From: Lachnospiraceae bacterium
GTDB lineage: Bacteria; Bacillota; Clostridia; Lachnospirales; Lachnospiraceae
NCBI GenBank assembly: GCA_024693845.1
Contig: JAILKJ010000003.1
Coordinates: forward strand, 16,028 to 80,027
Reading direction: 5' to 3'
Length of the DNA: 64,000 nucleotides
Shown here: one piece after another, positions 5,775 to 41,852 of the stretch
Position numbering within the stretch: the stretch's first letter is position 1
Layout of the letters: each line of letters opens with the position of its first letter
Notes under the pieces: model-generated
Seen by the model: only the letters and a program-made list of their open reading frames with translations
What the model was told of the DNA's origin: nothing
The model's database searches: none
Made by a program: the position numbers and the translations under genes

Positions 5775-6875
5775 TCAGGAATACACCTTCATCAGGTTCT
5801 CTAGCTTTGAGGACATGTTGCCCATGAGCAGGTCCAGGATGGTAAGTGCGGTCATGCACTCGACTACGACTACGGCGCGGGGGACGATGACGGGATCGTG
5901 GCGCCCGGTGATGGTCAGCTCTGTAGGTGTGCCGTCCTGAGTGACGGTCTGCTGGGGCTGATAGATGGAAGGGGTGGGCTTGATGTGAGCCCTTATGATC
6001 AGATCGCTTCCGTCTGAGATGCCGGCCAGTGTTCCGCCGCTGTGGTTGGTGATCTTAACGATCTTGCCGTTCTCATCGGCGCTGAAGCCGTCGTTGTTTT
6101 CGCTTCCCTTAAGTTTTGCGGCATTGATGCCATCGCCGATCTCAACGGCTTTAACGGCGCCGATGGACATGAGGGCAGCTGCAAGGCGGGCATCCAGCTT
6201 ATCAAAAACAGGATTTCCGATACCGGGCATAAGCCCTTTGGTCACACATTCGATGACGCCGCCGGCGGAATCCCGTTTCTCAATGCAATCAGCCAGATAA
6301 GCTTCCGCTAACTGAGAGGATACGCGATCCGGCATGGCAGTAGGCGTCTCAAGGATGGCCTGCCTGTCAAAGCGGGCAGGATCGATGGAAACTGAGCCGA
6401 TGCTTTTGGTATAGGCAAAGATCTCAATGCCCAGCTCTCTAAGGATCTTGGCGGCAACTGCGCCTGCAGCCACGCGTCCTGCAGTCTCGCGGCCGGAAGA
6501 ACGTCCGCCTCCGCGATAATCCCTGAAGCCGTATTTTTCATCATAGGTATAATCCCCGTGTCCCGGACGATAGCAGCTTGCAATCTGGGAATAATCCGAT
6601 GAGCGCTGGGAGGTGTTGCGGATCAGAAGGGCAATGGGAGTGCCGGTGGTCTTACCTTCGAACACGCCAGAGAGGATCTCCACCTCATCAGCCTCCTTGC
6701 GCTGGGTCGTGATGGCGCTCTGACCCGGCTTGCGTCTGTCCAGGTACTTCTGTATATCCGATTCACTGAGCGAAAGCCCTGCGGGACAGCCGTCGATCAC
6801 GGCGCCAAGGCCGGGTCCGTGGGATTCTCCGAAGGTCTGTACTCTGAAGTTATTGCCGAAACTTGATCCGTTCAT
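5775..6875 (-). CDS. aroC: Chorismate synthase
   Basis: MNGSSFGNNFRVQTFGESHGPGLGAVIDGCPAG, RPGHGDYTYDEKYGFRDYRGGGRSSGRET; internal Met chosen as start over the longer ORF. Confidence 0.95.
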   Translation of the reverse strand: MNGSSFGNNFRVQTFGESHGPGLGAVIDGCPAGLSLSESDIQKYLDRRKPGQSAITTQRKEADEVEILSGVFEGKTTGTPIALLIRNTSQRSSDYSQIASCYRPGHGDYTYDEKYGFRDYRGGGRSSGRETAGRVAAGAVAAKILRELGIEIFAYTKSIGSVSIDPARFDRQAILETPTAMPDRVSSQLAEAYLADCIEKRDSAGGVIECVTKGLMPGIGNPVFDKLDARLAAALMSIGAVKAVEIGDGINAAKLKGSENNDGFSADENGKIVKITNHSGGTLAGISDGSDLIIRAHIKPTPSIYQPQQTVTQDGTPTELTITGRHDPVIVPRAVVVVECMTALTILDLLMGNMSSKLENLMKVYS

Positions 6876-7013
6876 TTTTCTTTCCCCTGTAAGATGTAGA
6901 TTGACGATGTTTGTCTTGATTTCGTCTCGATTAGAATACCACAGATAGGCGATTTCGTACAAGGGCGACATTTTTATTGTATCCTGCATGGATTGTGGTA
7001 TATACTGTATCTC

Positions 7014-7973
7014 ATGAGTAATATAAAGTATTGGCTGAAAAAAGCAGGGATCGCAGCTCTGCTCATAGTGGTGATGCTTTTCTGCAGCAGTATTTTCTAC
7101 CAGACGGGAAGTGCTGCGGATGAAAGACATATAGCGGAGTTTGAATGGGAAGCCATGTCGGATGACTGGACATCGGTTTACTACGAAGGAAGCGATGAGG
7201 CGAATGACGTGAATCTAAAAGATAAGGCTGATTCCGGAGAAGCGGCTGATTCGAAGGAAGCTACGGGCGAAGAGATCGATGCGTCAGAAGTCGGAAAGGG
7301 AACCTCCCTTCTCAGCTACTCGAAGATAAGCGCTGAGGAAGAGGAGGATGATCCTCTGGCGGCCTTCTCTTCAGATGACTGGGAGCTGATCCTGGTGAAC
7401 AAGCAGCATCCCATTCCGGATGACTACAGCTTTGAGTTGGGAAGTATCCACAACGGACTTCGGGTGGACAAAAGGATCACGGACAAGCTGGACGCCATGC
7501 TGAGTGCGGCGGCGGACGACGGAGTGCCGCTCCTTGTGATCTCGCCCTATCGAAACGGCGACAAGCAGAAGGATCTGTTTGATAAGAAGGTGAAACGGGC
7601 GCTGAAGAATGAGAAAAGCTACCTGGATGCCTATCGCGAGACGGCGCAGGCGGTGACGATCCCGGGCTCCAGTGAGCATGAGATCGGTCTTGCGGCGGAT
7701 CTGACAACGAAGGCGCATATCACCCTGGATGCGGAATATGCCGAGTCGGAGGGCGGAAAGTGGCTTGCCGCTAACTGCACCAGATTCGGTTTTATCCTGC
7801 GTTATCCTGTGGGAAAAGAGAAGATCACGGGCATTGAGTACGAGCCCTGGCATTTCCGCTACGTAGGCAGGGAGGCGGCCGAGTATATCACGGAGCATGA
7901 TCTGTCCTTAGAAGAGTTTGTAAGCCTTTTAAAGGAGCGGGAAAGAGCCATGGAGCAGGAGAAGAGTGAATGA
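7014..7973 (+). CDS. M15 family D-alanyl-D-alanine carboxypeptidase (VanY-like), membrane anchored
   Basis: N-terminal TM; SPYRNGDKQKDLF, PGSSEHEIGLAADL, EPWHFRYVG motifs. Confidence 0.88.
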   Translation: MSNIKYWLKKAGIAALLIVVMLFCSSIFYQTGSAADERHIAEFEWEAMSDDWTSVYYEGSDEANDVNLKDKADSGEAADSKEATGEEIDASEVGKGTSLLSYSKISAEEEEDDPLAAFSSDDWELILVNKQHPIPDDYSFELGSIHNGLRVDKRITDKLDAMLSAAADDGVPLLVISPYRNGDKQKDLFDKKVKRALKNEKSYLDAYRETAQAVTIPGSSEHEIGLAADLTTKAHITLDAEYAESEGGKWLAANCTRFGFILRYPVGKEKITGIEYEPWHFRYVGREAAEYITEHDLSLEEFVSLLKERERAMEQEKSE

Positions 7974-26072: not shown

Positions 26073-26101
26073 TGCAACCTTTTGTGAAAAATCGCGGTAT
26101 T
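26073..26101 (+). promoter_or_regulatory. Candidate ECF-type promoter, copy 1
   Basis: TGCAACC (26073-26079)-N17-GTATT (26097-26101). Confidence 0.65.
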
Positions 26102-26202: not shown

Positions 26203-29139
26203 ATGAAAGATTATAACGATAACGAAATAAAAGATGTAAGCATCCTCTTACCCGAGGATGGGTATGAGGAAGATGATCGCGGCGGTGAAAACGAAAAGGA
26301 AGCCGAAGATTATTCCCAGATGTCCGACGACGAATTTTTTAAGAGCATGTGGGGCTTTTTGAAGGACGTTAATGATGTGCACGGATCCTTCGGCAAGAAT
26401 CCTTCTGAAAAGGAGCAGATCATCGAGGTGCCGGACGATGGGGACGGGCTTTATGATGGCGAAAATGAGGCCCCTGAAGAGGATCTGATCATCAAGCAGG
26501 ATCAGAAGGACCGGGATGAGGAAAAGGAAGCCGAGAAGAAGAAAACAAAGCATATCAAGACCAACTCCCTGGCTTATTATATCGCCATGGAGAATGAGTA
26601 TAAGTATGCCAAGAAGATAGATCCCAATGCGGAAATGCCTGAGGAACTGAAGGGCTTTCGTGAGACCATGAAGGCTCCTCTTATGAATAATACAGGCGAA
26701 AAGACAGGGGTTAAGATCGTTTCCGATCCCCGAAGGGATCAGGTGATAAAGGAAGCACAGGAGGCTGAAAAAAGAAAAGATGCGGCAAGTAAGGAGTTGG
26801 AGGCTGCAAAGGCTAAGCACAGCAAGTACCGGATCCGGGATCTTTCCCGTTTGGAGCTGAAGAGAAATCAGGATCAGATCGCTGCTCTGGTGGAGCTTTT
26901 GGACAGCAAGGATCACTGGTGGAGAGGCAGTTCCCCAAATTTCCGGGCTCTGATGAAGGAGCTTAAGACCCTCAAGGAGCTTTCTGCCGATCTGGCGGCT
27001 CAGCGCGCAGATCATACCGAGATCACGGATCCCGCAAAGCAGAAGGAAAAGGAGAAACAGATGAAGGCGGCAATGGGCCGTTACCAGCGCCAGATCGATC
27101 TGGTGGGACACGCTGCGGAAACCTATCTGATAAATAAGGTAGGGAAGATCAATTCCGATTATGCCCAGGCCCGGTTCGATACCATTACCGATATCAGGAA
27201 TATCATGCTGGTAAACAGGGATTCCCTGAAAAATGCCTATCTGGAGAATGATGCTGTCAATACGGAGCGCAGGATCAAGAACCGCAAACAGATGGAAAAG
27301 AGCAATGCCCAGCGTCAGAAGATCTATGACTGGCAGCAGAATATATATCACAAGTGCTCCTATTCAACCGACCTGTGCGGAGTCCGCAGCTCTTATATGG
27401 GTGATAACTTCACACAGGACTCTCTGGTTAAACTGGGCGGCAAGTTTTCCGTTGCCAGAGGTGCCGGTTTTTCTCTTTCCATGATGATCCTGATGGGTGA
27501 AAAGGATGAGAAGGGAAATAGGAAATATTCTATCGATGATGTGTTGGATCCCACAAAACTGTTGGCCGAAAAACAGAAGATCTTCAAAGAAGTGATCGGT
27601 CATATGAAAAAGGGAGACGAAGACAATGAATGGTTGGCCGAAAAGTTTTATGAAGCCCATAAGACAGGTGAAGCGGCCATTGATGAGCTGATGAAGAAGG
27701 TGGATTTTAAAGATCCTGATTATATGATGTCGGAAGCCTTCACAAAGGCCGGTGTGATCGGTCATTCCATGATGGATGTATGGCAGGAACTGGCCAGGAT
27801 CCCGGAGGAGTCCCTGAAGGTATTAAAGGAGAAAGAGCCGAACCTACGGGGCATCAACAATATCAATGATTACGGAGAACTGCTGGGAGCCAGAAGAGGC
27901 TATATCGATGTGATGAATGAAATGCAGTCCAAGCTGGCATCCCATCTGAAAAAACAGGAAGGCAATGGCGGTGTTGGCGTAGATGAACAGATGGCGTTGA
28001 CATCTGCTTATTCCCTCAATATTCTGAAGGGTCATTTAACGTCCATCGCAGAGAAAAACAAGGACAAGCCCTTTAATCATTGGTTTAAAGTGCAGGATGC
28101 CGTTTTCGGCAAGGAGCTGGAGAAGGATGCGGCGGATTATTTTTCCGCCCTGCCGATCCCCGGCGGGACATTCTTCGATTACAATCTTTCCTCATTCCTG
28201 GACGGAAGTGCTTTTAAAGACCTTCATCATAAGAGGAAGGAAGACGGCGAGATTTCCGGTTCTCTGCAGGGCGATTTTAATATAAATGCCATGGCAGATG
28301 ATCACTCAGTGATCACTTTGACGGATGCGGAGCTCTATCGCCGGATCGACAATAAGCTGGAGCATTATGATGAGCTGAAGAAGACCAGCAACAAACAGCT
28401 GCAGGAGTACATAAACGGTGCCATGAAGGCTACAGGTTTTTTGGCAAAGCATATCGTAAGTCCCGAAAAGATGAATGAGGATGAGAAGAAGCAGGCTGCA
28501 GAGAGCATGGAGGCGATCTTTAAGTGTCAGGTAGCGATCGAGCTGCAAGGTGCCGGAGCCACCGGAGATCTGCTGAAGAAAGAAGTTGACGATATTACGG
28601 TCAAGCTTCCGGAATACCAGCGCTACATGAAGAACATCGGCAAAACTTCCATGGCAGCTCTGATTTACGGTAATCTGGCCAATGAAGTTTCATCCAGCAA
28701 AGAGACGGATCTTTCCAAAGGCAGGATCGCCCGGGCCAGACTGGCGGACGGAAAGCAAAAGAGCGATCACAATTTTGCCGTTTTCTATGCCACAGCTTTT
28801 GCCTGTGCCGTATATGAGGCCAATAACGGAGTATTGCCCATCAATCCCTATAAGCCTTTTGATAAAAGATTTAAAATGGGAGAGTATATCGACCATGTTT
28901 ACGATTCCTTCTTCGGCTCGCCGGCAGGAAAGGCAAAGCTTGAAGAACTGAAGGCGAACCCGCATCAGATCCCCATGATCATGGACAATAAGGATAAACT
29001 GCGGGAAATGGTCAAGAGTCAGGACGAAAAGCTTCTTGCCCAGCGTGCGGAACAGCGCAAACTGGATGAGGAAAAGTTCCGTAAGCAGCGGGAGGAGAGT
29101 AAAAAGAATCAGGCGGCGTTGAAGAAGACCAAAGTCTGA
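26203..29139 (+). CDS. Large hypothetical protein (978 aa), cytosolic, coiled-coil rich; island protein A
   Basis: Long ORF with SD GGGGAGG; no signal peptide or TM; module SSPNFRALMKEL...AAETYLINK...ARFDTITDI. Confidence 0.9.
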   Translation: MKDYNDNEIKDVSILLPEDGYEEDDRGGENEKEAEDYSQMSDDEFFKSMWGFLKDVNDVHGSFGKNPSEKEQIIEVPDDGDGLYDGENEAPEEDLIIKQDQKDRDEEKEAEKKKTKHIKTNSLAYYIAMENEYKYAKKIDPNAEMPEELKGFRETMKAPLMNNTGEKTGVKIVSDPRRDQVIKEAQEAEKRKDAASKELEAAKAKHSKYRIRDLSRLELKRNQDQIAALVELLDSKDHWWRGSSPNFRALMKELKTLKELSADLAAQRADHTEITDPAKQKEKEKQMKAAMGRYQRQIDLVGHAAETYLINKVGKINSDYAQARFDTITDIRNIMLVNRDSLKNAYLENDAVNTERRIKNRKQMEKSNAQRQKIYDWQQNIYHKCSYSTDLCGVRSSYMGDNFTQDSLVKLGGKFSVARGAGFSLSMMILMGEKDEKGNRKYSIDDVLDPTKLLAEKQKIFKEVIGHMKKGDEDNEWLAEKFYEAHKTGEAAIDELMKKVDFKDPDYMMSEAFTKAGVIGHSMMDVWQELARIPEESLKVLKEKEPNLRGINNINDYGELLGARRGYIDVMNEMQSKLASHLKKQEGNGGVGVDEQMALTSAYSLNILKGHLTSIAEKNKDKPFNHWFKVQDAVFGKELEKDAADYFSALPIPGGTFFDYNLSSFLDGSAFKDLHHKRKEDGEISGSLQGDFNINAMADDHSVITLTDAELYRRIDNKLEHYDELKKTSNKQLQEYINGAMKATGFLAKHIVSPEKMNEDEKKQAAESMEAIFKCQVAIELQGAGATGDLLKKEVDDITVKLPEYQRYMKNIGKTSMAALIYGNLANEVSSSKETDLSKGRIARARLADGKQKSDHNFAVFYATAFACAVYEANNGVLPINPYKPFDKRFKMGEYIDHVYDSFFGSPAGKAKLEELKANPHQIPMIMDNKDKLREMVKSQDEKLLAQRAEQRKLDEEKFRKQREESKKNQAALKKTKV

Positions 29140-29202
29140 TATTGCAGCAGAAAGAAAAGGCAAAGCCGAAGGCGGCGGGAATGTGAATGAAATCACATTT
29201 TA

Positions 29203-29231
29203 TGCAACCGATATGGTATAATCAGTGTATT
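29203..29231 (+). promoter_or_regulatory. Candidate ECF-type promoter, copy 2
   Basis: TGCAACC (29203-29209)-N17-GTATT (29227-29231). Confidence 0.7.
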
Positions 29232-29254
29232 TAGGATAACAGGAGGATCTTAAC

Positions 29255-31219
29255 ATGCCGAGACGAAATAAGAAAAAATACGACCTGAAAGCAGAGGATG
29301 TCATCGCCCAGAACAGAGCGCGGGAAGAGCAGGAACTGCAGCAGCGCGAGCAGGAAGCACAGCAAATGGAGGAAGAGCTTCTTACCGAGAACAAGCAGGA
29401 TATTTATGATTATGCCTCAAGGGACGAGAAGATCGATTATCTCAAACAGCTGATGTGGTCCAAGGTGCTTCCGAGCGTGGGCGAGAACGGCGAGCGGTTT
29501 AAGGAAGAGCTGGAAAAGCCCGAAACCAGAGAGACCCTTGGTCTTGTTGCTGATAGGGTAAAGAATATCCGGGTAGCAGCCGAGCTGATGGAAAGCAAGG
29601 ATCTGCAAAGGACCATATTCGGCGGACTTGTGCCCGGTAAAAAAGGCTGGGATAAGGCCAAAGAAGATTTTATTCAGAATAAGCTGAACGGCATTGAAAA
29701 TTATGGCACGGAATCCGCCTATCGAAAGGTGCTGGCGGAAAGAGAAGCCAAAGAGCGCTTGTGGCGGCAGAAACTGGATGAATTTGCGTTCACTCAGGAG
29801 GACTATGAGAATGCTACGCCCAAGGAAAGAGCCGCGAAAGCAACGGAGTATATCAAGCTGTATTATTCGAAAGATGCAGCAGATCCCAAGGCAATGGATG
29901 AAAAGCTCAAGGATCCCGTGGCTCAGGAAGTGATCCTGAAGACGGTAACGGACTGCAAGCTTTGGCACACTGTGGTAGACATGACCGGTCACGGTTCCTT
30001 TGTGGATGCCACACTCGGTTCATCCTATAATGCAAATTTTGACGACGCACAGAGAGAGCAGTCCAAGGAAGATTTTTTGGAATACAACCTGAAAGCTGCC
30101 GTTCAGTATGATGAAAAGGCCGGACTCGAGGCACGGGCAAAGGAGAAAGCCGACAAGCAGAAGGAAGAAGAGCAGAAGCGAGTTGAAGATGCGGACAGCA
30201 GAAAACGGGAACACGCTGCCATCGATGTGGAATTCTATGATGATCACGGTCGGAATTTTGAAAAATGGCAAAAGTGGATCGAGGGTGTTGATTTCAATAT
30301 GGCAGGCACCGGTTCCCGGACCTTTAAGCAGATGAAGGAAGCCATCGTGGATCTGAATAAGTTTCATAAGGAGATGCGTTTCAATTTCAGGGAGGGGTAT
30401 GATCTGCAGCAGCAGGAAGCGCTTATGGACAAGCAAAAAGCTGCTATGAAAGCCGTAGAAAAGTATTTGGCCTATAAGCAGAAACAGATGGATAACGAGC
30501 CGGAACGAAGAAATAATCCCAAGAAGCAGAAACGGGAACAGCCCCGTATTGCCACCTCCATCAGGATCCTGAAGGAGATGGAAGATACCTTCGCGGTAGA
30601 GCAGGATGTTACCTTCAGAAAAGAAAGACATTTGCGGGATGAGCTGTATGACAAGATCATGGAAGAGGACAAGATCCTGAAAAACCATAATACACCGCAG
30701 AAGGAATACCTGGCCTCCGTTGCCAGAACGGTGGATATGATCAATAATTTCGACGCTAAAAGATGGTATAAGAGTAACGAGCATGCATCGGATTTTCTGG
30801 AGATCCATGATAAAGAGGTGCATAAGGATTACAATCCCGATGTGATGAGGGAACTGCTTGGTGCCAGAACGGCATCGGGGATGAAGGTATATAACGAGGC
30901 CTACAACATGACGATGAACGATCCGGATAAAAGACTGCATGTGAATGATCTGATTAATATGTCGCATGAGATGAGAGGCTTTGAGTTTCATCATCCGTTT
31001 CCCAATGTTAAACAGGCCATGGCTCTAGAACATGAAAAGGATGACTATATCAGAAATCTCTTGTCGGCAGATTCCAAAAATCAGCTCAATCGTCATGATC
31101 TTTTCAAAAATGAAGACAGCCAGATCATGGAACGAATGAATGCACAGGCAGAAAGACAGCAACAGCAAAACAGAAGCCACAACAGAAGCCAAAACAGAAG
31201 CCACAACAGAATGATGTAA
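29255..31219 (+). CDS. Large hypothetical protein (654 aa); island protein B
   Basis: SD AGGAGG; charged helical sequence; module EKYLAYKQKQMDNEPERRNNPKKQKREQPRIATSIRILKEM. Confidence 0.9.
   Translation: MPRRNKKKYDLKAEDVIAQNRAREEQELQQREQEAQQMEEELLTENKQDIYDYASRDEKIDYLKQLMWSKVLPSVGENGERFKEELEKPETRETLGLVADRVKNIRVAAELMESKDLQRTIFGGLVPGKKGWDKAKEDFIQNKLNGIENYGTESAYRKVLAEREAKERLWRQKLDEFAFTQEDYENATPKERAAKATEYIKLYYSKDAADPKAMDEKLKDPVAQEVILKTVTDCKLWHTVVDMTGHGSFVDATLGSSYNANFDDAQREQSKEDFLEYNLKAAVQYDEKAGLEARAKEKADKQKEEEQKRVEDADSRKREHAAIDVEFYDDHGRNFEKWQKWIEGVDFNMAGTGSRTFKQMKEAIVDLNKFHKEMRFNFREGYDLQQQEALMDKQKAAMKAVEKYLAYKQKQMDNEPERRNNPKKQKREQPRIATSIRILKEMEDTFAVEQDVTFRKERHLRDELYDKIMEEDKILKNHNTPQKEYLASVARTVDMINNFDAKRWYKSNEHASDFLEIHDKEVHKDYNPDVMRELLGARTASGMKVYNEAYNMTMNDPDKRLHVNDLINMSHEMRGFEFHHPFPNVKQAMALEHEKDDYIRNLLSADSKNQLNRHDLFKNEDSQIMERMNAQAERQQQQNRSHNRSQNRSHNRMM
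31169..31211 (+). repeat. 12-bp tandem repeat AACAGAAGCCAC (about 3.5 copies) encoding the NRSH/NRSQ tail of protein B
   Basis: AACAGAAGCCAC AACAGAAGCCAA AACAGAAGCCAC AACAGAA. Confidence 0.9.
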
Positions 31220-31226
31220 AGCAGTA

Positions 31227-31266
31227 CAGAACCGTTTGGGTGACAGTCATCATCGAGACGGTTCTG
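31227..31266 (+). terminator. Hairpin after island protein B, possible weak terminator
   Basis: CAGAACCGT ... ACGGTTCTG 9-bp stem followed by TTGCTCGTTATATT. Confidence 0.4.
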
Positions 31267-31300
31267 TTGCTCGTTATATTGTCCGCAGATTTGCGAGGAA

Positions 31301-31329
31301 TGCAACCGAATGCGGATCAGCCGTGTATT
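31301..31329 (+). promoter_or_regulatory. Candidate ECF-type promoter, copy 3
   Basis: TGCAACC (31301-31307)-N17-GTATT (31325-31329). Confidence 0.7.
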
Positions 31330-31395
31330 CTGAACAGATACGAAAAAAACACAGACAGTATTGGTTCAGAGTAAAGACACAGGAGGAACGAACAT

Positions 31396-34300
31396 ATGCC
31401 GAAAATGACCAAGGAGACCCTCAGAGCTTTAAAACAATTTGCCGACCAGGTGATCGCAGCGGGAAATATCAATACCCCCGAAATGCGACGCTATTTCATT
31501 GAGGCCGCAAGGAACACTTCTTACAGTGAAGATGCCAGAAATGATGCGAATGAGATCTATAATATCATTACCAACGACCATTTTCAGGCTTTTGATAAAC
31601 TGAGTGCGCTTTCCGCCAAGATGCAGACCATGATCGATGATCCGAATTATCCAGACAATTCTCCGACTGCCGAGGACGACACGAGGGCAGTAACGGATAC
31701 CTTCCGGGATTATTATGACAATTATCGCATGCTGGATACCCATATCATGAATTTTAACGCGGATACGGGTTATAAGCCGCTGAACAAGCTCAATTCTCCG
31801 CTGCAGTCTTTGATCGGTGTGATCCATTCCTATTCCCAGATCGATACGCAGTATGATCTGATAAATATTCAGATCGAGAACAGCTATACTCAGGCACAGA
31901 TCGATGCACTGAAAAAGGAAAACAAAAAGTTGGATGACATGACCGACTTTATCGTGTTTGAAGTGGCGGATGATGTGGATTTCCATAATGTGAACGATAT
32001 TATTGACAAGCATCATGCAGATGAAAGAACCCTGAATGCCACCAGGGCGGAGCTTGCCGACTTAAAATCCCCGGACAAAAGACTTGTCTACGAAACCCTT
32101 GAAAAAAGGCGCATTGAAGAAGCACAGCAGCACCAGAAAAATTATGTGGATGCTTATAAAAAGGTTTTGGACGAGGCGGATCATGAGGTTCAGAAAGCCC
32201 AGGAGCTGACGGACAGTGCCCGGCATGATTTTGATGAGTATAAAAATCTGGAGGCCAGAACCCTGCCTATGATCAGAAGGGCTGCAGAGGCCAAACAGGA
32301 ACATGAAAGAATGTCGAAAGAGCTGCAGGAAATGCGAAGAAATCGCGTGAAGCTCAATAATCTGATCGATCTGACCCATATCGATAAAGAGCCTCAAAGT
32401 GAGGCCGACAAACTGTATAAGGCCTATTATAAAGCAAAACGGAACAGTGAAAAATGGGAACAGGTGGGAAAGCTGTTTGAAGAGTTCTTCGAGAAGTACG
32501 GTAACTCCGATATGGCCATGGCAGTATGTGCAAGCCCGGAAAGCAACGTCGCCGTCACTTTCAAGAAGGTATACCAGAATAATCCCAACACGAAAGCACA
32601 GTCAGACGAGATCAACGGTTCGGAAAAACTGCTTGCCGATATCAAAAAGATCCTTCCGGATCCCGAGTTCTGGGAAAAGAATGTGGCCAAGGCAAAGAAT
32701 GAACAGGGCGTTTTGGACAGAAAGCTTTTGCGGGAAACGATCGAAAAGGAGACGACGCAGTTTGCGGAAAGCTCTTTTTATGATCTGGCAAAAGATCAGA
32801 ATTATATCAATCATTTCCGTCTGAAGCAGATCAATAAGCTGCTCCTTGAGGCGACTGATAAGGAGGATCCCCGTGCGATCGAAATGCTGCAGGAGGAACA
32901 GAAAAAGCTCTATGACGAAATGTTAAACAACGGTTCCGGTGCCGTGGATCTGAAGCATGTCGACGACATCCTGGTGCTTCAGAAGCTTGTCAAGGACTTC
33001 GATCAGCTGAAACTGGATTTTGAGAATGCGGCAAAAGACTATGCCGAGAAACAGCAGGGAGCTTTGACCGCGCTGAATGATCTTGAAAAGCTGAAAGCCG
33101 GACAACTGATCAAAAACAATCCCGGCTTTGCCCGGCTGCGTGAAGCTGTGGAAAAGGGTGAGCTTTCCAAGACAAGTTATGATACCGTTGTATCCCAGGC
33201 CTTCAAAGGCAATCAGATCCATAAGCATTATGAGGATATGACGCAGAAGGCGGAGGAGAACCTTCGCCAGAAGAAAGCCAGCCGAAAAGCGGTCAGTGAG
33301 CAGTATCGCAAGCTTAAGAGGGAAAATACCGAGATGAAGCTCGATGCTAAAGACTGCAGCTTTAATAACTATGTATATGATGTGGTCAAGAAGGCTGTTT
33401 CGGTACACAATCATGAGAAAGAACTGGAAAAGAACAGCGGCAGATATCAGCATATCCAGGATACCAAGCTGCAGTTCAAAACCGTAGAAGACAGCCGCCG
33501 CAATCTCTATGTTGCTTTCAAGGAAAAGGCGGCCAAAAAGCAGATTGCCAAGGGAATCTATGATAAAGTCAACGAATTGAAAAGAAGCTTTACCTTTGCC
33601 CGGAATAATCCGAATCCGGATCCCAAGGCCGGTAACTCCAACAAATACAACGCCATCTATACCGCACTGGAAAGCTTCGGGACCAAACAGGATATTGAAA
33701 AGCTCTCGCCCGATGAGCTGAGGGAAAAATTCCGCGTTTTGTCCAAAGCGGCATCGGATTATAAAACAGCCAAGTTAAACCAGAAGCTTCATTTCAAGAT
33801 CTTTGCTTCCAAGCAAAGAACCTTCCGTCTGGCCTATGCGGATGAGGTGACTACCTTCTGCAAGAACGAAACCGCACTGCTTGGCAACGGCTGGGATATC
33901 ACGCCGGAAAATGAGCGCTATATCAGTGACCAGGCAAAGCTTCTGCCGGAAGGCATGCGCTATATGATCGATAATCCCCGGGGACGCGATCACGTCAGGG
34001 ATGAAAGTGTAGATGTGCGTTTCCGTCGCTATACCGAAAAACAGGCGGATTATAATGCGGTACACTATAAGGTGAATCAGCTCAAGGATATGGAGGCGGA
34101 TATTAAAAGCCGTCTGAATTCCATAGACCTGCAAAGAAAAGGCCGCAAGGAGATCATCATGACAGATGAGGAGAATAAGCGGATCTATGAGCAGGAGACA
34201 TGGACAGTCCTGTATTATCTTCATACTCTGGATGAACTGCACAACTACAAAGCCGGTGAAACTTCGGAGGAGAGATGGACAAGGCTGACTAATATGTATG

Positions 34301-34689
34301 AAGAATACAATGAGGATGCCAATGTCGCTGCGTTCATGGCAAACCCGCCGGATCAGAAATACAAGGATGTGGCCAATTATATCAACACAACCTATTCAAA
34401 TCCCTCTGCCCTCATGCGGGAAAAGGTGGATACCGCTTCGATGCGCTCTTACCTGAAGGCTTACGGTAAGACTGCGGTGGAAAAGAACACCGAGAAGGAA
34501 CTGTATGACAGAGAAAGGCAGCGTTTAAAAGCCATAGAGGACGAAAAGAAAAGAATACAGGAAGCGGCTGAAAAAGCAAAAAAAGACGAGCCGAAGTACG
34601 ACAAGAAAGGGAATCGCATTCCCAAGCCTTCCGCTCCCCATAAGGATCTGACGGGGCCTACGGGCTTTCAGGGGCCGGGCAAAAAATAA
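31396..34689 (+). CDS. Giant hypothetical coiled-coil protein (1097 aa); island protein C
   Basis: SD AGGAGG; paralogous to protein D (NSNKYNAIYTALESFGTKQDIEKLSPDELREKFRVLSKAASDYKTAKL...RTFRLAYADEVTTF). Confidence 0.92.
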   Translation: MPKMTKETLRALKQFADQVIAAGNINTPEMRRYFIEAARNTSYSEDARNDANEIYNIITNDHFQAFDKLSALSAKMQTMIDDPNYPDNSPTAEDDTRAVTDTFRDYYDNYRMLDTHIMNFNADTGYKPLNKLNSPLQSLIGVIHSYSQIDTQYDLINIQIENSYTQAQIDALKKENKKLDDMTDFIVFEVADDVDFHNVNDIIDKHHADERTLNATRAELADLKSPDKRLVYETLEKRRIEEAQQHQKNYVDAYKKVLDEADHEVQKAQELTDSARHDFDEYKNLEARTLPMIRRAAEAKQEHERMSKELQEMRRNRVKLNNLIDLTHIDKEPQSEADKLYKAYYKAKRNSEKWEQVGKLFEEFFEKYGNSDMAMAVCASPESNVAVTFKKVYQNNPNTKAQSDEINGSEKLLADIKKILPDPEFWEKNVAKAKNEQGVLDRKLLRETIEKETTQFAESSFYDLAKDQNYINHFRLKQINKLLLEATDKEDPRAIEMLQEEQKKLYDEMLNNGSGAVDLKHVDDILVLQKLVKDFDQLKLDFENAAKDYAEKQQGALTALNDLEKLKAGQLIKNNPGFARLREAVEKGELSKTSYDTVVSQAFKGNQIHKHYEDMTQKAEENLRQKKASRKAVSEQYRKLKRENTEMKLDAKDCSFNNYVYDVVKKAVSVHNHEKELEKNSGRYQHIQDTKLQFKTVEDSRRNLYVAFKEKAAKKQIAKGIYDKVNELKRSFTFARNNPNPDPKAGNSNKYNAIYTALESFGTKQDIEKLSPDELREKFRVLSKAASDYKTAKLNQKLHFKIFASKQRTFRLAYADEVTTFCKNETALLGNGWDITPENERYISDQAKLLPEGMRYMIDNPRGRDHVRDESVDVRFRRYTEKQADYNAVHYKVNQLKDMEADIKSRLNSIDLQRKGRKEIIMTDEENKRIYEQETWTVLYYLHTLDELHNYKAGETSEERWTRLTNMYEEYNEDANVAAFMANPPDQKYKDVANYINTTYSNPSALMREKVDTASMRSYLKAYGKTAVEKNTEKELYDRERQRLKAIEDEKKRIQEAAEKAKKDEPKYDKKGNRIPKPSAPHKDLTGPTGFQGPGKK

Positions 34690-34696
34690 AATCCTA

Positions 34697-34725
34697 TGCA
34701 ACCGAATCCGTTTCGCTTGTGTATT
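34697..34725 (+). promoter_or_regulatory. Candidate ECF-type promoter, copy 4
   Basis: TGCAACC (34697-34703)-N17-GTATT (34721-34725). Confidence 0.7.
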
Positions 34726-34810
34726 ATACACAGAAAGAATCGAAACACTGCTGGATTTATAACATAACATCGACGGATCCGAAGGATCTTCGAAAAAAGG
34801 AGGGACACTC

Positions 34811-37800
34811 ATGCCGAGAACAAAAAACCACCAGGTCAATTACACAAAGAACGATTTTAAGATGCTGATCGGTCTCGCAAACGATGTCGGCGAAGTGAAA
34901 CTTGGTGATCAGAAAAAGATTGAAGATAAGCTGAGCGGCTATATCCGTGCAAACGAAAACAGCGAGGATCCTTCCAAGGTTAAGAAGGTGGCTGCGGCAA
35001 AAGTACTCCTTCCTTTCCTGAAAAAGGGAGGTACGCTTGAAAAGATCAAAAACTCAATGGCGCAGTCGGTGCCGGAGATCCAGGAAGAATTGGAAGAAAA
35101 ATTCGAGAAAAACCCTCAGGTCGAAGTCATTGACGGTATGGATGTGAATATGCTGATCTATAAGGGTTTTGATGAACTTAAGAGAGTAGACGATATGGAT
35201 GATGATGCAGGGATCCTGCGCGTGGATCAGGCTTTGACCGACTTTTTTGAAGAGCAAAACTTTGCGGAGTACGAGGATGATTCTCCGCTGAAGGATATTG
35301 TGGATTCCGTGAAGACCTGTGTCAATGCATGGCATGCCAATGAACATATTCTGGCCAACGGAGACAGGCAGAGATATTTTTCCGATAATCCGGAAGAAAA
35401 GATGAGAAACATGTGGCGCACCTTCAGTAAGAAAAATGTGCAGCCGCTCATATCAGCCTATGATAACGATCTGGATCTGGAAAAGGTGCAAAGAGACAGA
35501 AAGCAGACCAGAACCGAACTGGTCCGGGTGTCAAAAGAGATCACAAGCCTGCAGAGGCAGTATGATGAACAGATCAAGGCGGAAAGCAAGGCACGCAATG
35601 ATCTTGCGTTATACGAAAATGAATACAGGTCTGTGGAAAGAGAGCTTGAGGATGAAAGCAGAAAGGCCATCAGCGGAGAAGGCATCAGGATGACCATACA
35701 GGAAAGAGAGGCCTATTACAATGCCATGAGAGAGCTTGCGCTTGCTCATAAAGACATTACCGACGGCCTTAACAGCCAGCCTCCCAAACAGGTGAACCTG
35801 TTTAAAGAAGCGCAGGAGGATGCCAGAGCCTATGAGCAGATGAAGCAGGAAGTTGATTCGATCAGGGAGAAGACCGATCCCGATCTTCTGATCGAAAAGC
35901 TGGTGGCAAATGATCTGACAGACAAAGAGGCTGCTCGCACCGCGCTGAAAAAGTTTTATAACGATGCCGTGGCTTCTAAAACAGCGGAAAAGAAGTGGAA
36001 TCAGATCAACGGAACTTTCATCAACTATAAAAACCTCTTCTCTGATGATCCGGATATCATGAACTTTTTGATCAGCAACGATGATACCCTGGTTTCCAGA
36101 GGCTTTCAGAAGCTTCAGAATGAGTATGCTCACAGCGATGATCCGGATAAGAGGAGTCTCTACGATCAGGCCGTCGGTTTAAAATCCAGGATCATTGAAA
36201 ATATGGATGAAAAGCTGGATACCGTATTTAATTATGACGGTAAGACGGATCAGAAGACTTATCTTGCTACTCTGGAGAAGAATCTTTCCGAAAAACCGCT
36301 TCAGATCCGTAAGGATTTCGCCGAGAATAATCGTGTCTTCCGTGCTTACAGAGGCTTCACGAAATCGGATGAGCGGTTGACGGAGAATAAGGAGCTTCTT
36401 GAGGCGGAGATGAAGAAGGGCGATCAGGCAGATCCGAAGCTCATCGAAGAATACTCCAACAATATGACCAAGTTTGCTCAGAAAAAGTCCGAATATGATG
36501 AGCAGCTGCTTTCCTTAGAAATCAAATATGCGGATCAGATCAAGGCGCTGGATGATCTGGCAAACCAAAATGTGTCTTCTGACAGCCTGTTAATGAATTA
36601 TCACGAGAATAAACTGAATCAGGCGAAGAAAAAAGCGGATAAGAGTGCGGCTAAGGCGAAGAAGATCAAGGATGCGGTTGAACTTCTGAATAAATCCGCC
36701 ATCGCCAATGAAAGTAATGAGCTGCAGGATCTGATCCATGTGGTCACCGCGGAGAATCCGGATTATTCCAAGCTTCCGAAAAGCGTTGCTTTCATGGACA
36801 AGGTATTTGAGAAAAAGAAAGAAAGTCTGAATAAAAACAACGAGCGCAAAATGAAAGAACTGCAGGAGCGCAAGGCGCAGCTCTACAATAAAAAAGCTGC
36901 TGCAGATCAGGTGATAAATAACTTAAAGACCGGCGAGCTGTTGGATAAACTGGTAGAAAAGTGCACGCTGCAGAATCGTCTGACGAAACAGGATGAGGTA
37001 CTCACGCAAAAGGAAAAAATGATCCTGGCTGTGGGCGATGGTGCCAAGCAGTACATGAAGCAGCAGTACGATTCCTTTAAGGCAGGCGTAAAGAATTTCC
37101 CTACATACGGAACCGAAAAGGCCTATGAACGGATCTTTGACAAGATCGAATCTTTGCGTCACGATTATTCCAAATGTATGCGTAAGGATTATGCCAGAAA
37201 TCCGAATAAGAACAGTACGGAATACAAGTTGATCAAGGAAAAGCTGGACAGCTTCGGAACCAGAGAAGATTTTTATAAGCTTACCAAGGAAGAGATCGCA
37301 CAAAAGCTGGGTCAGCTCCAGAAGGCCGCTTCCGATTATAAGACAAAGAAGCTGGATGAAACCAGACTGTGGTGGTCAGCCCAGAGAAGATACCGTCTTT
37401 CTTATGCGGACAGGATCGTGGATTTTGCCAAGGGTGAATCTAAGATTTTAACCGGTATTCTCGCACCCGGCAATGATGAACAGGATCTTGCCAGGGTAAA
37501 GGAGTTAAGTACAAAGTTTGAGAATGTTAATCCCAACGGTAAAAAGCTGGTGTTCGATCAAGAAGGTTTCCCGTCTCTGGAGCCCAAAACAAAAGAGGAT
37601 GTTGCCAAAGAGATCTTCGCAATGCAGCCGGATCAGGCGGGCACACTTTCCGATTTCGATGCCATAGACAGATTTATCGAAAAGACCAAAAAGGATATCT
37701 TAAAGAAACTGGATAAATCTTCCGACCAGATCTCGGATCGTGATGTAGCGCATGTTTTGATCGGACTGGATATATTGAATGATGTCAAAAAAGACCTCAG

Positions 37801-38260
37801 AGATCCCAAAGCGCTTCTGCTGGAAGGAAATGAGGAGCACCTTGCAAAAATAAAAGAGGCACTGACTAAGCAGGAACTCAGCAAAAAGGCAGGAGAAATC
37901 CAGGATAACAAATATGATTATGATCTGTATCTGGATTCCGCAGCGAGAATGGATAAACTATTCCTTTCCCACATTACGGATCCCCAGAAGGTTCTGGATC
38001 ACAGAGAAAAAATGGATATCCGTGCGGATCAGAAGTCATTCGCTTTGGGACGCCTGGACAGCAAGCGCCGGATGGCCGAAGACAGTATTCATTTCCAGGT
38101 TAATAAAAACATTAAGTCCCTTAACAAAGATAACCTGAATGACGCAATGGATCAGGCAGGGATCGGTAAGAAGGTTCAGAAGAATAACGCCGAGGGAAAT
38201 CAGGCCGAGGCCCCCAAAGCCAAAAGGAAGCCTGCTAAGAAAACATTCCAGCCCGGCTGA
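34811..38260 (+). CDS. Giant hypothetical coiled-coil protein (1149 aa); island protein D
   Basis: SD GGAGGG; NSTEYKLIKEKLDSFGTREDFYKLTKEEIAQKLGQLQKAASDYKTKKL...RRYRLSYADRIVDF shared with protein C. Confidence 0.92.
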   Translation: MPRTKNHQVNYTKNDFKMLIGLANDVGEVKLGDQKKIEDKLSGYIRANENSEDPSKVKKVAAAKVLLPFLKKGGTLEKIKNSMAQSVPEIQEELEEKFEKNPQVEVIDGMDVNMLIYKGFDELKRVDDMDDDAGILRVDQALTDFFEEQNFAEYEDDSPLKDIVDSVKTCVNAWHANEHILANGDRQRYFSDNPEEKMRNMWRTFSKKNVQPLISAYDNDLDLEKVQRDRKQTRTELVRVSKEITSLQRQYDEQIKAESKARNDLALYENEYRSVERELEDESRKAISGEGIRMTIQEREAYYNAMRELALAHKDITDGLNSQPPKQVNLFKEAQEDARAYEQMKQEVDSIREKTDPDLLIEKLVANDLTDKEAARTALKKFYNDAVASKTAEKKWNQINGTFINYKNLFSDDPDIMNFLISNDDTLVSRGFQKLQNEYAHSDDPDKRSLYDQAVGLKSRIIENMDEKLDTVFNYDGKTDQKTYLATLEKNLSEKPLQIRKDFAENNRVFRAYRGFTKSDERLTENKELLEAEMKKGDQADPKLIEEYSNNMTKFAQKKSEYDEQLLSLEIKYADQIKALDDLANQNVSSDSLLMNYHENKLNQAKKKADKSAAKAKKIKDAVELLNKSAIANESNELQDLIHVVTAENPDYSKLPKSVAFMDKVFEKKKESLNKNNERKMKELQERKAQLYNKKAAADQVINNLKTGELLDKLVEKCTLQNRLTKQDEVLTQKEKMILAVGDGAKQYMKQQYDSFKAGVKNFPTYGTEKAYERIFDKIESLRHDYSKCMRKDYARNPNKNSTEYKLIKEKLDSFGTREDFYKLTKEEIAQKLGQLQKAASDYKTKKLDETRLWWSAQRRYRLSYADRIVDFAKGESKILTGILAPGNDEQDLARVKELSTKFENVNPNGKKLVFDQEGFPSLEPKTKEDVAKEIFAMQPDQAGTLSDFDAIDRFIEKTKKDILKKLDKSSDQISDRDVAHVLIGLDILNDVKKDLRDPKALLLEGNEEHLAKIKEALTKQELSKKAGEIQDNKYDYDLYLDSAARMDKLFLSHITDPQKVLDHREKMDIRADQKSFALGRLDSKRRMAEDSIHFQVNKNIKSLNKDNLNDAMDQAGIGKKVQKNNAEGNQAEAPKAKRKPAKKTFQPG

Positions 38261-38340
38261 TAGGGATTGCATGATAAGAACAAGGCAGTGTAAATGGCTG
38301 TCTGTATGAACGGAAACATATCATATAGGAGATCAAGAGG

Positions 38341-41130
38341 ATGAAAGAACAAGAACAAAACGGCGGCAATTTTTTTGAGATAAAGGAAGAAACAATAAAG
38401 GACAAAATGATCCGGGAGGTGCAGACCAGCGCATCACCTGTGCGCGCTCAGGCCGCAAGGTTCTTTCTGGACGGAAGGTATGAGGAGGCCTCCGAGCAGG
38501 ATCGCAGGGAGAAGGTAGGGGAGTATTTGTCCTTAAAAACGGTGGAGATCAGAAACAACCTGAATCTGGATAATGAGGCTTATGAAAAAGTAATCACTGA
38601 TCTGGACAAACCTCAGGTGGAGGATGTGCTGAATTCGCTTCTGGAGAATGTGCAAAGTGGACCGGATATGCTGCTGGCTCTTAATCTGAAAGAGATCGAT
38701 ACAGTTTTATATCCCACTCTGGATGAGAGGATCAATATGTCCTACAATGAGGGCGCCGATGATCTGACCAGGACATTTCGAAATGATCTCATCGAGAGGA
38801 TCGAATCTATTGATGATGATTCTGAAGACATGACCTTTGAAAACCTCTTCCTCAGAAATGATGGCGTTGAGTTTGTGCCGGATGAATATGATGTGGAAGG
38901 CAATAGGCTGGACGGTAAGAAGGAATTCGTCTTTGATGAGGATGCCTATGTGAACGGCCCCATCGAACAGACCTATGAGGAAGCTTATCAGGAGCAGAAG
39001 GATGCTTTTGAAAGAGAACAGATCCTGAATGATATTGATGATGACGATGAGCTGGATGTTGATGTTCCAAACCTGAATGACCTGATCGGAGATTATGAAG
39101 GTCCGACTACTTTCACGCTTTCCAATGATGAGGCTGCGCAGAAGCAGGCGGATATTCAGAACGAAGAACAGGAAGACATTAAGAACGAAGAACAGGTAAA
39201 CATACAGGAAGAAAAGCCGATAGAAGTGGATCCGGAAGTGGAAAGGATACTGGAGGAAGACCGGGCCAAACTGCAAGTAAGCAAACAGAAGTCGGCACTT
39301 ACAAAGCTTATGATCCTCCATACACCGAATGATAAGGAAAGCTTTAACAGTTCACGGATCAATAACAGGATCCTCAATAAGATCGTAAATGAAATGAGCA
39401 GGCTGGATCAGGAAGGAGCCGATCCCAAATACGAAGAGCTGGTAGATAAGGATGATGAAGCACTGAAGGAGCTTGATCCCTGGAAGAACTATTCCCTGGA
39501 GGATCTGGAAAGAGAAGAAAAGCAGGAGGCAGAGCAAAAACAGAAAGAGCAGGAAGAGCAATACAAAGCCTTTGTTGAAGCCAGAGAAAGGGAGAAAGAA
39601 AATGAAGATGTGATAATCAATAAACAGACCGGAAACGCTCAGGTGATGTATACCAATAAGAACCTGAGTGATTCGGCAGAGCGGGAGAATGAGGAGCCCA
39701 AGCAGGAGATTCCCCAAGAAGATCTTGAGATGGAGAATCTCAAGATCGAAGAGGCAGCGAAAGAGGGCAACATCTTCCATCAGGAGGAGAAAAAAGAAGA
39801 AAAGGTTGTAGAAGCTCCCAAGGCGGAAACACCCGAAGAGTTCATCATGAACGGCAATAAGTTCCTTTACTGCGGTAAGAGCCGGCGCGTGGCGGCGTTA
39901 AAGGAGTATCTGGTACAGCGTGCCATGGATCGGTATACGGACTTTTACGGAACCGGTTATGAGAACCGGGAAGAATCCTTCATGAAGTACCTTTCCACCA
40001 ACGAGGTGGCCATGCAGCTCATCGATGATATGGCCAGATCCCTCAACGGACCTCAGTGTATGCAGATCCTGAAGTCCGATAAGATCATGAAGGTGGGCTT
40101 TGATGCTTTTGAGAAGAACCTGGAGGTAAGCGACCGCAAACGTGCGAAAAACGTTTCCAAGTTTTATACCGGCCCCGATGAGATCAGCAATAATCTGAGA
40201 GACAAGGCTAAAAGCCGTTTCTTCGGAAGCATCTTAAATCCCAGCCCCACTGTGGAACGGATGCAGGAGGAGTGCTACAGAAAGTTGGACGAGGCTAAGG
40301 AACGCCCCTTCAAGATCAACCATGACAATATGACCAAAGCAGCAGATCTGATCTTTGCGGAAATGCTTACCCGTAACCAGGCTACCATGGCAGGCGGTTA
40401 CTTCGGGAAAGGCAAAGATGAGCTGATCAGACCCGAGCACAACTGGGATCTGAGCTCCGGTGAATTCAAACTCATCGGCTCTAAAATGGGCAAAAACGAT
40501 CATACCTTAAAGCAGCATAATGAGAAGATGCAGTCCATGCGTGATCGCATGCTGAAGGATAAGATCTTTAAGAAAGTCTTTGAGGAAGAGCGAAAGAGGG
40601 GCGGCACCTCCGCAGATTTCGTAAAGCGTTACAAGGCGGAATGGAAAAGGGAAATGGAATTCTCTGCCGGCAAAGAGCAGGTATGGGTGAAAAACAGAGC
40701 CCTTGACTCTAAGAAGATCTCCCTGTCACAGGATGAAAAAGAATTCTTCCGAAACATGTACAATGACATGTGGAACTTCAACAATAAAGAGGTCCGCAAG
40801 GGCGTGAACGAAGACATGATGAAGGCGCTGAAGAACGTCAACGAAAAGGCGGCGGGAGATGCTCTTACGGTTGAGGATATGAAGCTGCTCAACTATACCA
40901 GTGCCAAGTACTATATGGCCAGGAAAGGTACCTTCATGGAGCCTGTCACCCAGGCCGGTAAGGACAGACTGCAGGCATCGGCTGATATCCACAAGAAAGC
41001 CAACGGCATCATCGATGGCATTGAAGCTAAGCTGGCGAATGATAAGAGCGCTGAATATGACAAGATGATGCAGGAGAACAACCCCGTAACATCCCGGCAG
41101 CAAAAGAAGGTAAGTGCTCCGGCTAAATAA
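38341..41130 (+). CDS. Large acidic hypothetical protein (929 aa); island protein E
   Basis: Long ORF; C-terminal domain SAKYYMARKGTFMEPVTQAGKDRLQ shared with downstream ORF; Glu/Gln-rich low-complexity centre. Confidence 0.9.
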   Translation: MKEQEQNGGNFFEIKEETIKDKMIREVQTSASPVRAQAARFFLDGRYEEASEQDRREKVGEYLSLKTVEIRNNLNLDNEAYEKVITDLDKPQVEDVLNSLLENVQSGPDMLLALNLKEIDTVLYPTLDERINMSYNEGADDLTRTFRNDLIERIESIDDDSEDMTFENLFLRNDGVEFVPDEYDVEGNRLDGKKEFVFDEDAYVNGPIEQTYEEAYQEQKDAFEREQILNDIDDDDELDVDVPNLNDLIGDYEGPTTFTLSNDEAAQKQADIQNEEQEDIKNEEQVNIQEEKPIEVDPEVERILEEDRAKLQVSKQKSALTKLMILHTPNDKESFNSSRINNRILNKIVNEMSRLDQEGADPKYEELVDKDDEALKELDPWKNYSLEDLEREEKQEAEQKQKEQEEQYKAFVEAREREKENEDVIINKQTGNAQVMYTNKNLSDSAERENEEPKQEIPQEDLEMENLKIEEAAKEGNIFHQEEKKEEKVVEAPKAETPEEFIMNGNKFLYCGKSRRVAALKEYLVQRAMDRYTDFYGTGYENREESFMKYLSTNEVAMQLIDDMARSLNGPQCMQILKSDKIMKVGFDAFEKNLEVSDRKRAKNVSKFYTGPDEISNNLRDKAKSRFFGSILNPSPTVERMQEECYRKLDEAKERPFKINHDNMTKAADLIFAEMLTRNQATMAGGYFGKGKDELIRPEHNWDLSSGEFKLIGSKMGKNDHTLKQHNEKMQSMRDRMLKDKIFKKVFEEERKRGGTSADFVKRYKAEWKREMEFSAGKEQVWVKNRALDSKKISLSQDEKEFFRNMYNDMWNFNNKEVRKGVNEDMMKALKNVNEKAAGDALTVEDMKLLNYTSAKYYMARKGTFMEPVTQAGKDRLQASADIHKKANGIIDGIEAKLANDKSAEYDKMMQENNPVTSRQQKKVSAPAK
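39151..39213 (+). repeat. Degenerate 30-bp-type repeat encoding DIQNEEQ-like units in protein E
   Basis: ADIQNEEQ / EDIKNEEQ / VNIQEEK. Confidence 0.6.
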
Positions 41131-41150
41131 AGGTTTTTGAATTCCGTCTG

Positions 41151-41852
41151 GTGAAGGGTTATCTGGATCATAAGCTTTTCGAATTTGCCGAACACCCCGC
41201 ACAGCGCGACCCGGATCGCAAGCAGAAGCATGAACAACCCAGAATACAGGCTGTCATGAAAGTATATGATGATATGAAAAAGCAGCTGCTGGAAGAGCCT
41301 GAGCTTTTAAAGCAGGCCATGGCTGATGCAGCCTCTCCAAAAGAAATCTACGGTAAGCTCCGTGAAAGACTCCGCCGGAATATGGATACCGGTGTGGATG
41401 ACGCAAAGAAAGCCGAAGAAGCGGAAGCACGCAGAGAAAAGAGCCTGCTTACTGATGCGGAGGATATCTATATCCTGGGCAAGAAGGATAATGATTATCT
41501 GAAAAAGACCCGCAAGGAGTTAAAGGAGCTCTATGTGCTGGACGGAAAGTTCCGCTCCGAATATGCGGAAAAGCTCTATAAAAAGCTGGACAGAGTGATC
41601 AGATCTGCGGATCAGAATGACGGTATCATTCCGCAGAAGGAGATCAACAGCCTGAAAAACAAAGCCCTGGTATACTACGATAAGAGAAAGGGCGTTTTGA
41701 TGGGACCCATCACCGACAAGGGCAAGGCGAGGCTGAAGATCGTGGAAAACCTTGCGCACAGACTGGATCGGATCTCGATCCAAGCGAATATCCGGGATGC
41801 TGACCGAAATATGCAAAATAATAATCGCAGAGTGCCGGGTAATCATATCTGA
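41151..41852 (+). CDS. Short composite island protein F (233 aa), probable truncated paralogue or remnant
   Basis: GTG start, no evident SD; begins inside a YLDHK...KHEQPRI module shared with protein B, and ends with a KALVYYDKRKGVLMGPITDKGKARL domain shared with protein E. Confidence 0.5.
   Translation: MKGYLDHKLFEFAEHPAQRDPDRKQKHEQPRIQAVMKVYDDMKKQLLEEPELLKQAMADAASPKEIYGKLRERLRRNMDTGVDDAKKAEEAEARREKSLLTDAEDIYILGKKDNDYLKKTRKELKELYVLDGKFRSEYAEKLYKKLDRVIRSADQNDGIIPQKEINSLKNKALVYYDKRKGVLMGPITDKGKARLKIVENLAHRLDRISIQANIRDADRNMQNNNRRVPGNHI

Follow-up and report, generated by a model that had tools for sequence, protein, structure and literature searches.

The 64-kb window analysed here, the whole stretch of DNA presented above, carries a block of six co-directional open reading frames (ORFs) between a LytTR/AgrC-like gene pair and leuS, namely five intact giant genes for soluble proteins (A to E) and a shorter one, F (233 aa). 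With a probability of about 0.72, A to E are candidate effectors of a dedicated, non-conjugative type IV secretion system (T4SS) of rumen Lachnospiraceae, F being a probable remnant. Export via the T4SS was considered the best reading because the giants are co-regulated with the machine and genetically linked to it, and because of their shared module and their C-terminal tails. The genome of the window (G000) was compared with six siblings (G001 to G006), which gave seven genomes of one genus, and more widely with 250 genomes from the bacterial family and 392 sampled from the class. The coordinates and sizes of the six genes were as given in a preliminary description made from the sequence:

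26203..29139, + strand: gene A, 978 aa, candidate effector; homologues in five of the six siblings, missing only in G005
29255..31219, + strand: gene B, 654 aa, candidate effector
31396..34689, + strand: gene C, 1097 aa, candidate effector; paralogue of D (blastp E 8e-19)
34811..38260, + strand: gene D, 1149 aa, candidate effector
38341..41130, + strand: gene E, 929 aa, candidate effector with an MKExE-type N-terminus
41151..41852, + strand: gene F, 233 aa, interpreted by alignment to the B and E families

Gene E begins 80 bp past D without a promoter of its own, so it is probably co-transcribed with D. Gene F has a GTG start 20 bp past E, within a module that is whole in B, and since it also lacks a promoter it is probably the 5′-truncated remnant of a giant gene. 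No transmembrane (TM) segment was found in the six ORFs (19-residue hydropathy peaks at 1.03), and their charged, helix-rich character was borne out. Searches of these ORFs against Pfam, NCBIfam and PADLOC gave nothing above the curated cut-offs, and PHROGs gave a single weak match to an unnamed family, for D only (E 6e-4); with no PADLOC match and one such PHROG, genes of anti-phage defence or of a prophage were rejected as candidates. Moreover, the profile of the A family had no match in the PDB, and a scan of IMG/VR found no relatives of A, which speaks against a phage origin, while Rfam recovered over the window tRNA alone, outside the block. No match to a described family of known function was thus found, and the earlier statement that no enzymatic motif is recognised holds for the six window ORFs but not for their family, whose relatives carry enzyme domains.

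Genes A to D are each preceded by the motif TGCAACC-N18-TATT, confirming the earlier observation that four of the genes share a promoter. It was found exactly four times in the window, where 0.03 occurrences are expected per 64 kb:

26073..26101, + strand: regulon promoter before A, TGCAACC-N18-TATT (TGCAACCTTTTGTGAAAAATCGCGGTATTAT); the same pattern lies before T4SS genes on contig C73
29203..29231, + strand: regulon promoter before B, TGCAACC-N18-TATT
31301..31329, + strand: regulon promoter before C, TGCAACC-N18-TATT
34697..34725, + strand: regulon promoter before D, TGCAACC-N18-TATT

Only three other sites were present in the genome of the window (seven in total), and all of them were in the C73 machine locus. 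Across the seven genomes of the genus, 79 sites were counted against 2 for the reversed pattern used as a control, and the same promoter appeared in the siblings before the machine and before dozens of giants. When 75 distinct sites were classified, 32 lay before module genes, 26 before other large soluble ORFs and 3 directly before machine genes; several of the remaining 11 classified sites lay before small ORFs heading the machine operon (e.g. in loci L162, L163, L180 and L203). Furthermore, most family genes of the genus have TGCAACC-N16-GGTATTAT upstream, as do some of those in G150 and G079. The first ORF past the machine-operon promoter encodes a protein of 156-178 aa with an ‘LPRAPE(E/D)L’ stretch (about 4984-5520 of L162; also L163, L180 and L195). 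No regulator role is claimed for the LytTR/AgrC-like pair, because the promoter has no recognisable LytTR-type repeat and the pair keeps its place beside different giants in the siblings.

A four-helix module of ~90 residues is also shared by all six window ORFs. It was found with two hidden Markov models (HMMs; M1 and M2) made from relatives in the seven genus genomes and iterated on 508 ORFs, which detected it in 69 ORFs overall, whereas controls made by reversing and shuffling these proteins gave E values no better than ~0.1. The sharing of modules noted in the preliminary description therefore extends to six out of six ORFs, and profile similarity among them does exist, beyond what pairwise BLAST detects (C/D, E 8e-19; E/F, 1e-4; B/F, 1e-3; A with none). 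As local profile-profile alignments between families gave high-probability links only for C-D and E-F, the link through the module rests on the iterated HMMs and their controls. The module was located as follows:

26884..27189, + strand: module in A, residues 228-329 (M2 domain E 8e-29)
30263..30556, + strand: module in B, residues 337-434 (M2 E 9e-19)
33622..33852, + strand: module in C, residues 743-819 (M1 E 2e-14)
37190..37420, + strand: module in D, residues 794-870 (M1 E 2e-17)
40714..40992, + strand: module in E, residues 792-884 (M1 E 3e-26)
41439..41756, + strand: module in F, residues 97-202 (M1 E 2e-24, M2 E 1e-20)

Its consensus is NKGKxPSDxMKxLxxALxxV...LNxAALxYYxxRQGxFFxPxTxxGKxRL. 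AlphaFold2 modelled the module with 14 relatives as a confident helical bundle (pLDDT 91.6, pTM 0.87), and the model of F had a pLDDT of about 90 in the module core. Four-helix membrane-localisation domains (4HBM), which occur in large toxins and in BteA, are likewise four-helix bundles, whose loops 1 and 3 carry conserved basic and hydrophobic residues (PMC8100071), and loop residues of this kind appear here in NKGKxPSD and RKGxFFxPxT. However, the likeness is one of topology alone: the idea arose when the F model gave weak Foldseek matches (best PDB E 0.39), and it failed with the better module model, which had no significant match among PDB and viral structures (best PDB E 0.73). A second shared domain was found in A:

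27391..28143, + strand: second shared domain in A, residues 397-647, ‘..DDILDPxKL..’, recurring in giants from two further genera

The machine lies elsewhere in the same chromosome, at about 15-40 kb of contig C73. Its operon encodes a 202-aa small protein, a VirD4-like ATPase, a 607-aa MKE-type protein, secreted and lipoprotein-like ORFs, a VirB6-like protein, a 1634-aa VirB4 and a 2342-aa secreted protein. The VirD4-type coupling ATPase matched PF02534 (T4SS-DNA_transf, E 7e-54) and TraG-D_C (6e-33), as well as NF045973 (the NCBIfam CD1115-type VirD4) above cut-off; VirB4 matched structure 4ag5 (E 2e-48) and the TraG P-loop (2e-17), and the VirB6-like polytopic membrane protein matched NF045848 (a conjugal-transfer TM family) above cut-off. 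Pfam and NCBIfam searches of S439 and of an S2342 homologue gave no match naming VirB1, VirB3 or VirB8, and two TM segments at the start of the VirB4 ORF might correspond to a fused VirB3. A P202-type small protein was seen beside the machine genes in six of the loci compared (L162:6048-6655; L254, L259/L260, L212, L213).

The gene order VirD4-S439-VirB6-VirB4-S2342 is repeated in other genera, and the giants accompany it: the machine, the promoter and a module giant follow each other in one run in G150, module giants flank the machine on either side in G183, and machine and giants occupy a single 95-kb contig in G008. A long VirB4 (at least 1286 aa, 60-68% identical) was found in 10 of the 250 family genomes. 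It co-occurred with the module (6/4/3/237, p = 5e-8; without the genome of the window 5/4/3/237, p 9e-7), the two sets of counts coming from separate scans of overlapping genome sets that were taken as identical. Within the genus, module giants were accompanied by a 66-72%-identical VirB4 in five of the six siblings (G001-G004 and G006), while G005 had neither of them and only a divergent second VirB4. This second T4SS (VirB4 37-42% identical) was observed at G005:C8:1-3723 (L265), G004:C120 (L266), G001:C72 and G006:C161.

The six-gene block first described is real, but it proved too small a frame, because the regulon extends over the genome, with the block as one variable site. Across the genus, the module occurs in many proteins of varied size, at scattered sites adjoining housekeeping genes, and in G002 and G004 other giants occupy the site between the AgrC-like gene and leuS. 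In G004 (C290, locus L063), in particular, A and B are separated by an additional giant of 924 aa, the end of which was recognised in the window:

29145..29186, + strand: deletion scar, the last 13 codons and stop (QQKEKAKPKAAGM*) of the 924-aa giant kept in G004:C290, from blastn of L063 against the window and translation

Judged by this alignment, the A-B gap contains the tail end of a deleted seventh giant gene. The module is patchy in the family (8/250 genomes at the first threshold, including one probable false match) and multi-copy where present (eight in G008, six in G190), and in the class sample it was found in one genome besides that of the window. A match in G175 was treated as false, the ORF being unrelated in look and adjoining conjugation-type genes. 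The named matches were Lachnospiraceae, mainly metagenome-assembled genomes from rumen or omasum, together with Eubacterium ruminantium FB3002. The genome of the window has two further giant-family genes of 434 and 455 aa (G000:C7; L107:3975-5279 and 6166-7533), the second with the module, which flank a lipoprotein-like gene of 280 aa. Moreover, an isolated 104-residue A-like fragment in a short frame (G000:C31:74204-74515) is a probable remnant of another giant gene.

The C-terminal tails of the giants are basic and disordered. The last 25 residues of 76 module proteins had a mean net charge of +3.3, compared to -0.27 in 323 other ORFs (p 3e-22) and -0.2 in the interior of the same module proteins (p 3e-12); the non-independence of related sequences inflates the significance of these p-values, but the difference itself is large. 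The N-termini fell into two classes, MKExE and MP. Among the relatives, an ADP-ribosylglycohydrolase domain (E 5e-39) and a Fam20C/PI3-PI4-kinase-like catalytic stretch (DYICxNxDRHxxN...GIDNDxSFG) were found, one kinase-like relative being encoded in G004 immediately downstream of the B- and A-type genes there. The kinase-like stretch was seen in L060:12655-16089, L113, L114, L115, L116, L041 and L048, at times doubled in one protein (L113, L100). Neither a BID (Bep) nor an XVIPCD domain was found with Pfam in the six window ORFs or among the reported families of 64 relatives.

According to the proposed mechanism, machine and effectors would be turned on jointly from promoters of the TGCAACC-N16-GGTATTAT type, presumably by one alternative sigma factor or activator. 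The giants would be synthesised without a Sec signal and probably handed by their basic disordered tails to the VirD4-like coupling ATPase, perhaps with the P202-type protein of the machine locus as their chaperone, and would then be exported via a channel of the VirB4/VirB6 type. The four-helix module would serve all of them for targeting or handling, and the variable rest of each giant would act in or on a neighbouring cell. A bolder version, put forward tentatively and at rather less than even odds, is that dozens of giant multidomain effectors (with kinase-like, ADP-ribosylglycohydrolase and uncharacterised domains) are injected into eukaryotic neighbours, e.g. rumen ciliates or fungi, the module being a new targeting module common to them; the only pointers to a eukaryotic recipient are the kinase-like and ADP-ribosylglycohydrolase domains together with the rumen habitat.

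Several points weigh against the giants being T4SS effectors. Their secretion is predicted from sequence, and in the six window ORFs themselves neither an effector activity nor any of the enzyme domains of their relatives was recognised. Nucleic-acid-binding or scaffold proteins, too, commonly have basic disordered tails, and the giants of G008 and G190 lack the TGCAACC promoter. Furthermore, module genes without the long VirB4 occur in G079 and G270, and VirB4 without a module match at the first threshold in G104, G177 and G245, some of these genomes being incomplete. Finally, VirD4, VirB4 and VirB6 fall in conjugation families, and for that reason the machine is likely to have descended from an integrative and conjugative element (ICE). 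It might even be an ordinary conjugation apparatus, i.e. a degenerate ICE, whose stress- or contact-responsive promoter is shared by giants that are cytoplasmic proteins, as the best matches of these three components, to conjugation and mycoplasma-ICE families, would suggest. This is unlikely, however, given that module giants adjoin the machine in other genera, that module and machine co-occur, and that no integrase or relaxase was seen in the machine loci, which sit amid housekeeping genes. Nor was the MobP relaxase (PF03432), the only relaxase family searched, found in G000, G150, G190, G105, G104 and G245.

Of the two roles offered in the preliminary description, substrates of a non-Sec export route are well supported by the promoter common with the VirD4/VirB4 locus and by the adjacency in other genera, whereas nothing beyond helical character was found in support of a cytoplasmic structural assembly. 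An intracellular assembly expressed with the machine, such as a cytoplasmic sorting platform or scaffold, would agree with helix-rich, charged giants lacking signal peptides and TM segments, and the common module suggests common partners. Yet the repertoire varies strongly between siblings, by gain and loss of whole genes, the relatives carry enzyme domains and the loci are dispersed, which makes an assembly slightly less probable still than the conjugation apparatus. Least probable is that the giants are toxins or effectors exported by another route (e.g. a type VII secretion system, T7SS), with a T4SS that is merely co-regulated. Co-regulation by itself is no proof of the T4SS as the exporter, but adjacency and co-occurrence are with the T4SS, and no T7SS-type N-terminal domain was matched in the six ORFs, no search for a T7SS in the genome having been made.

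With the giants read as candidate T4SS effectors, the block points to a whole lineage of apparently non-pathogenic rumen bacteria with a machine, a common regulon signal and dozens of candidate substrates, which promoter and module together allow to be listed in a simple, sequence-only way. The export or injection of proteins into other cells by such systems is hardly known in Gram-positive bacteria, and no description of the giant family was found in the literature searched, largely without subscription papers and preprints. Since module proteins are present in the cultured E. ruminantium FB3002, the claim is testable.

Among known systems, the Gram-negative VirB/D4 effector translocators include Agrobacterium VirB/D4, Bartonella with its BID/Bep effectors and Xanthomonas with X-Tfe/XVIPCD. 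They have in common with the system proposed here a VirD4 coupling ATPase and VirB4, the co-regulation of machine and effectors, and many modular effectors with one shared domain and basic or polar disordered C-terminal tails. In contrast, the host here is monoderm, there is no BID/XVIPCD sequence match, the candidate effectors are far larger (up to 3250 aa) and the module is not always C-terminal. The ICE conjugation machines of Mycoplasma and Clostridium (Mbov_0397 VirB4, MMCAP2_0566 TM protein and CD1115 VirD4; NCBIfam) have homologous VirD4, VirB4 and VirB6-like parts and are the probable ancestors of the present machine. Unlike them, it has a VirB4 under the family cut-off, a VirD4 at most ~30% identical to the best plasmid copies, no MobP relaxase in its genome, and linked giants. 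According to a 2025 review, nearly all known functions of Gram-positive T4SSs are DNA transfer, and dedicated effector translocation by them is a long-standing question, with the 89K T4SS of the Gram-positive Streptococcus suis, for which secretion of a protein (SspA-1) has been reported, as the lone case (PMC12857230). Whereas a single substrate has been reported for 89K, a pathogenicity island, the machine described here sits amid housekeeping genes and is accompanied by a large co-regulated family of candidate substrates.
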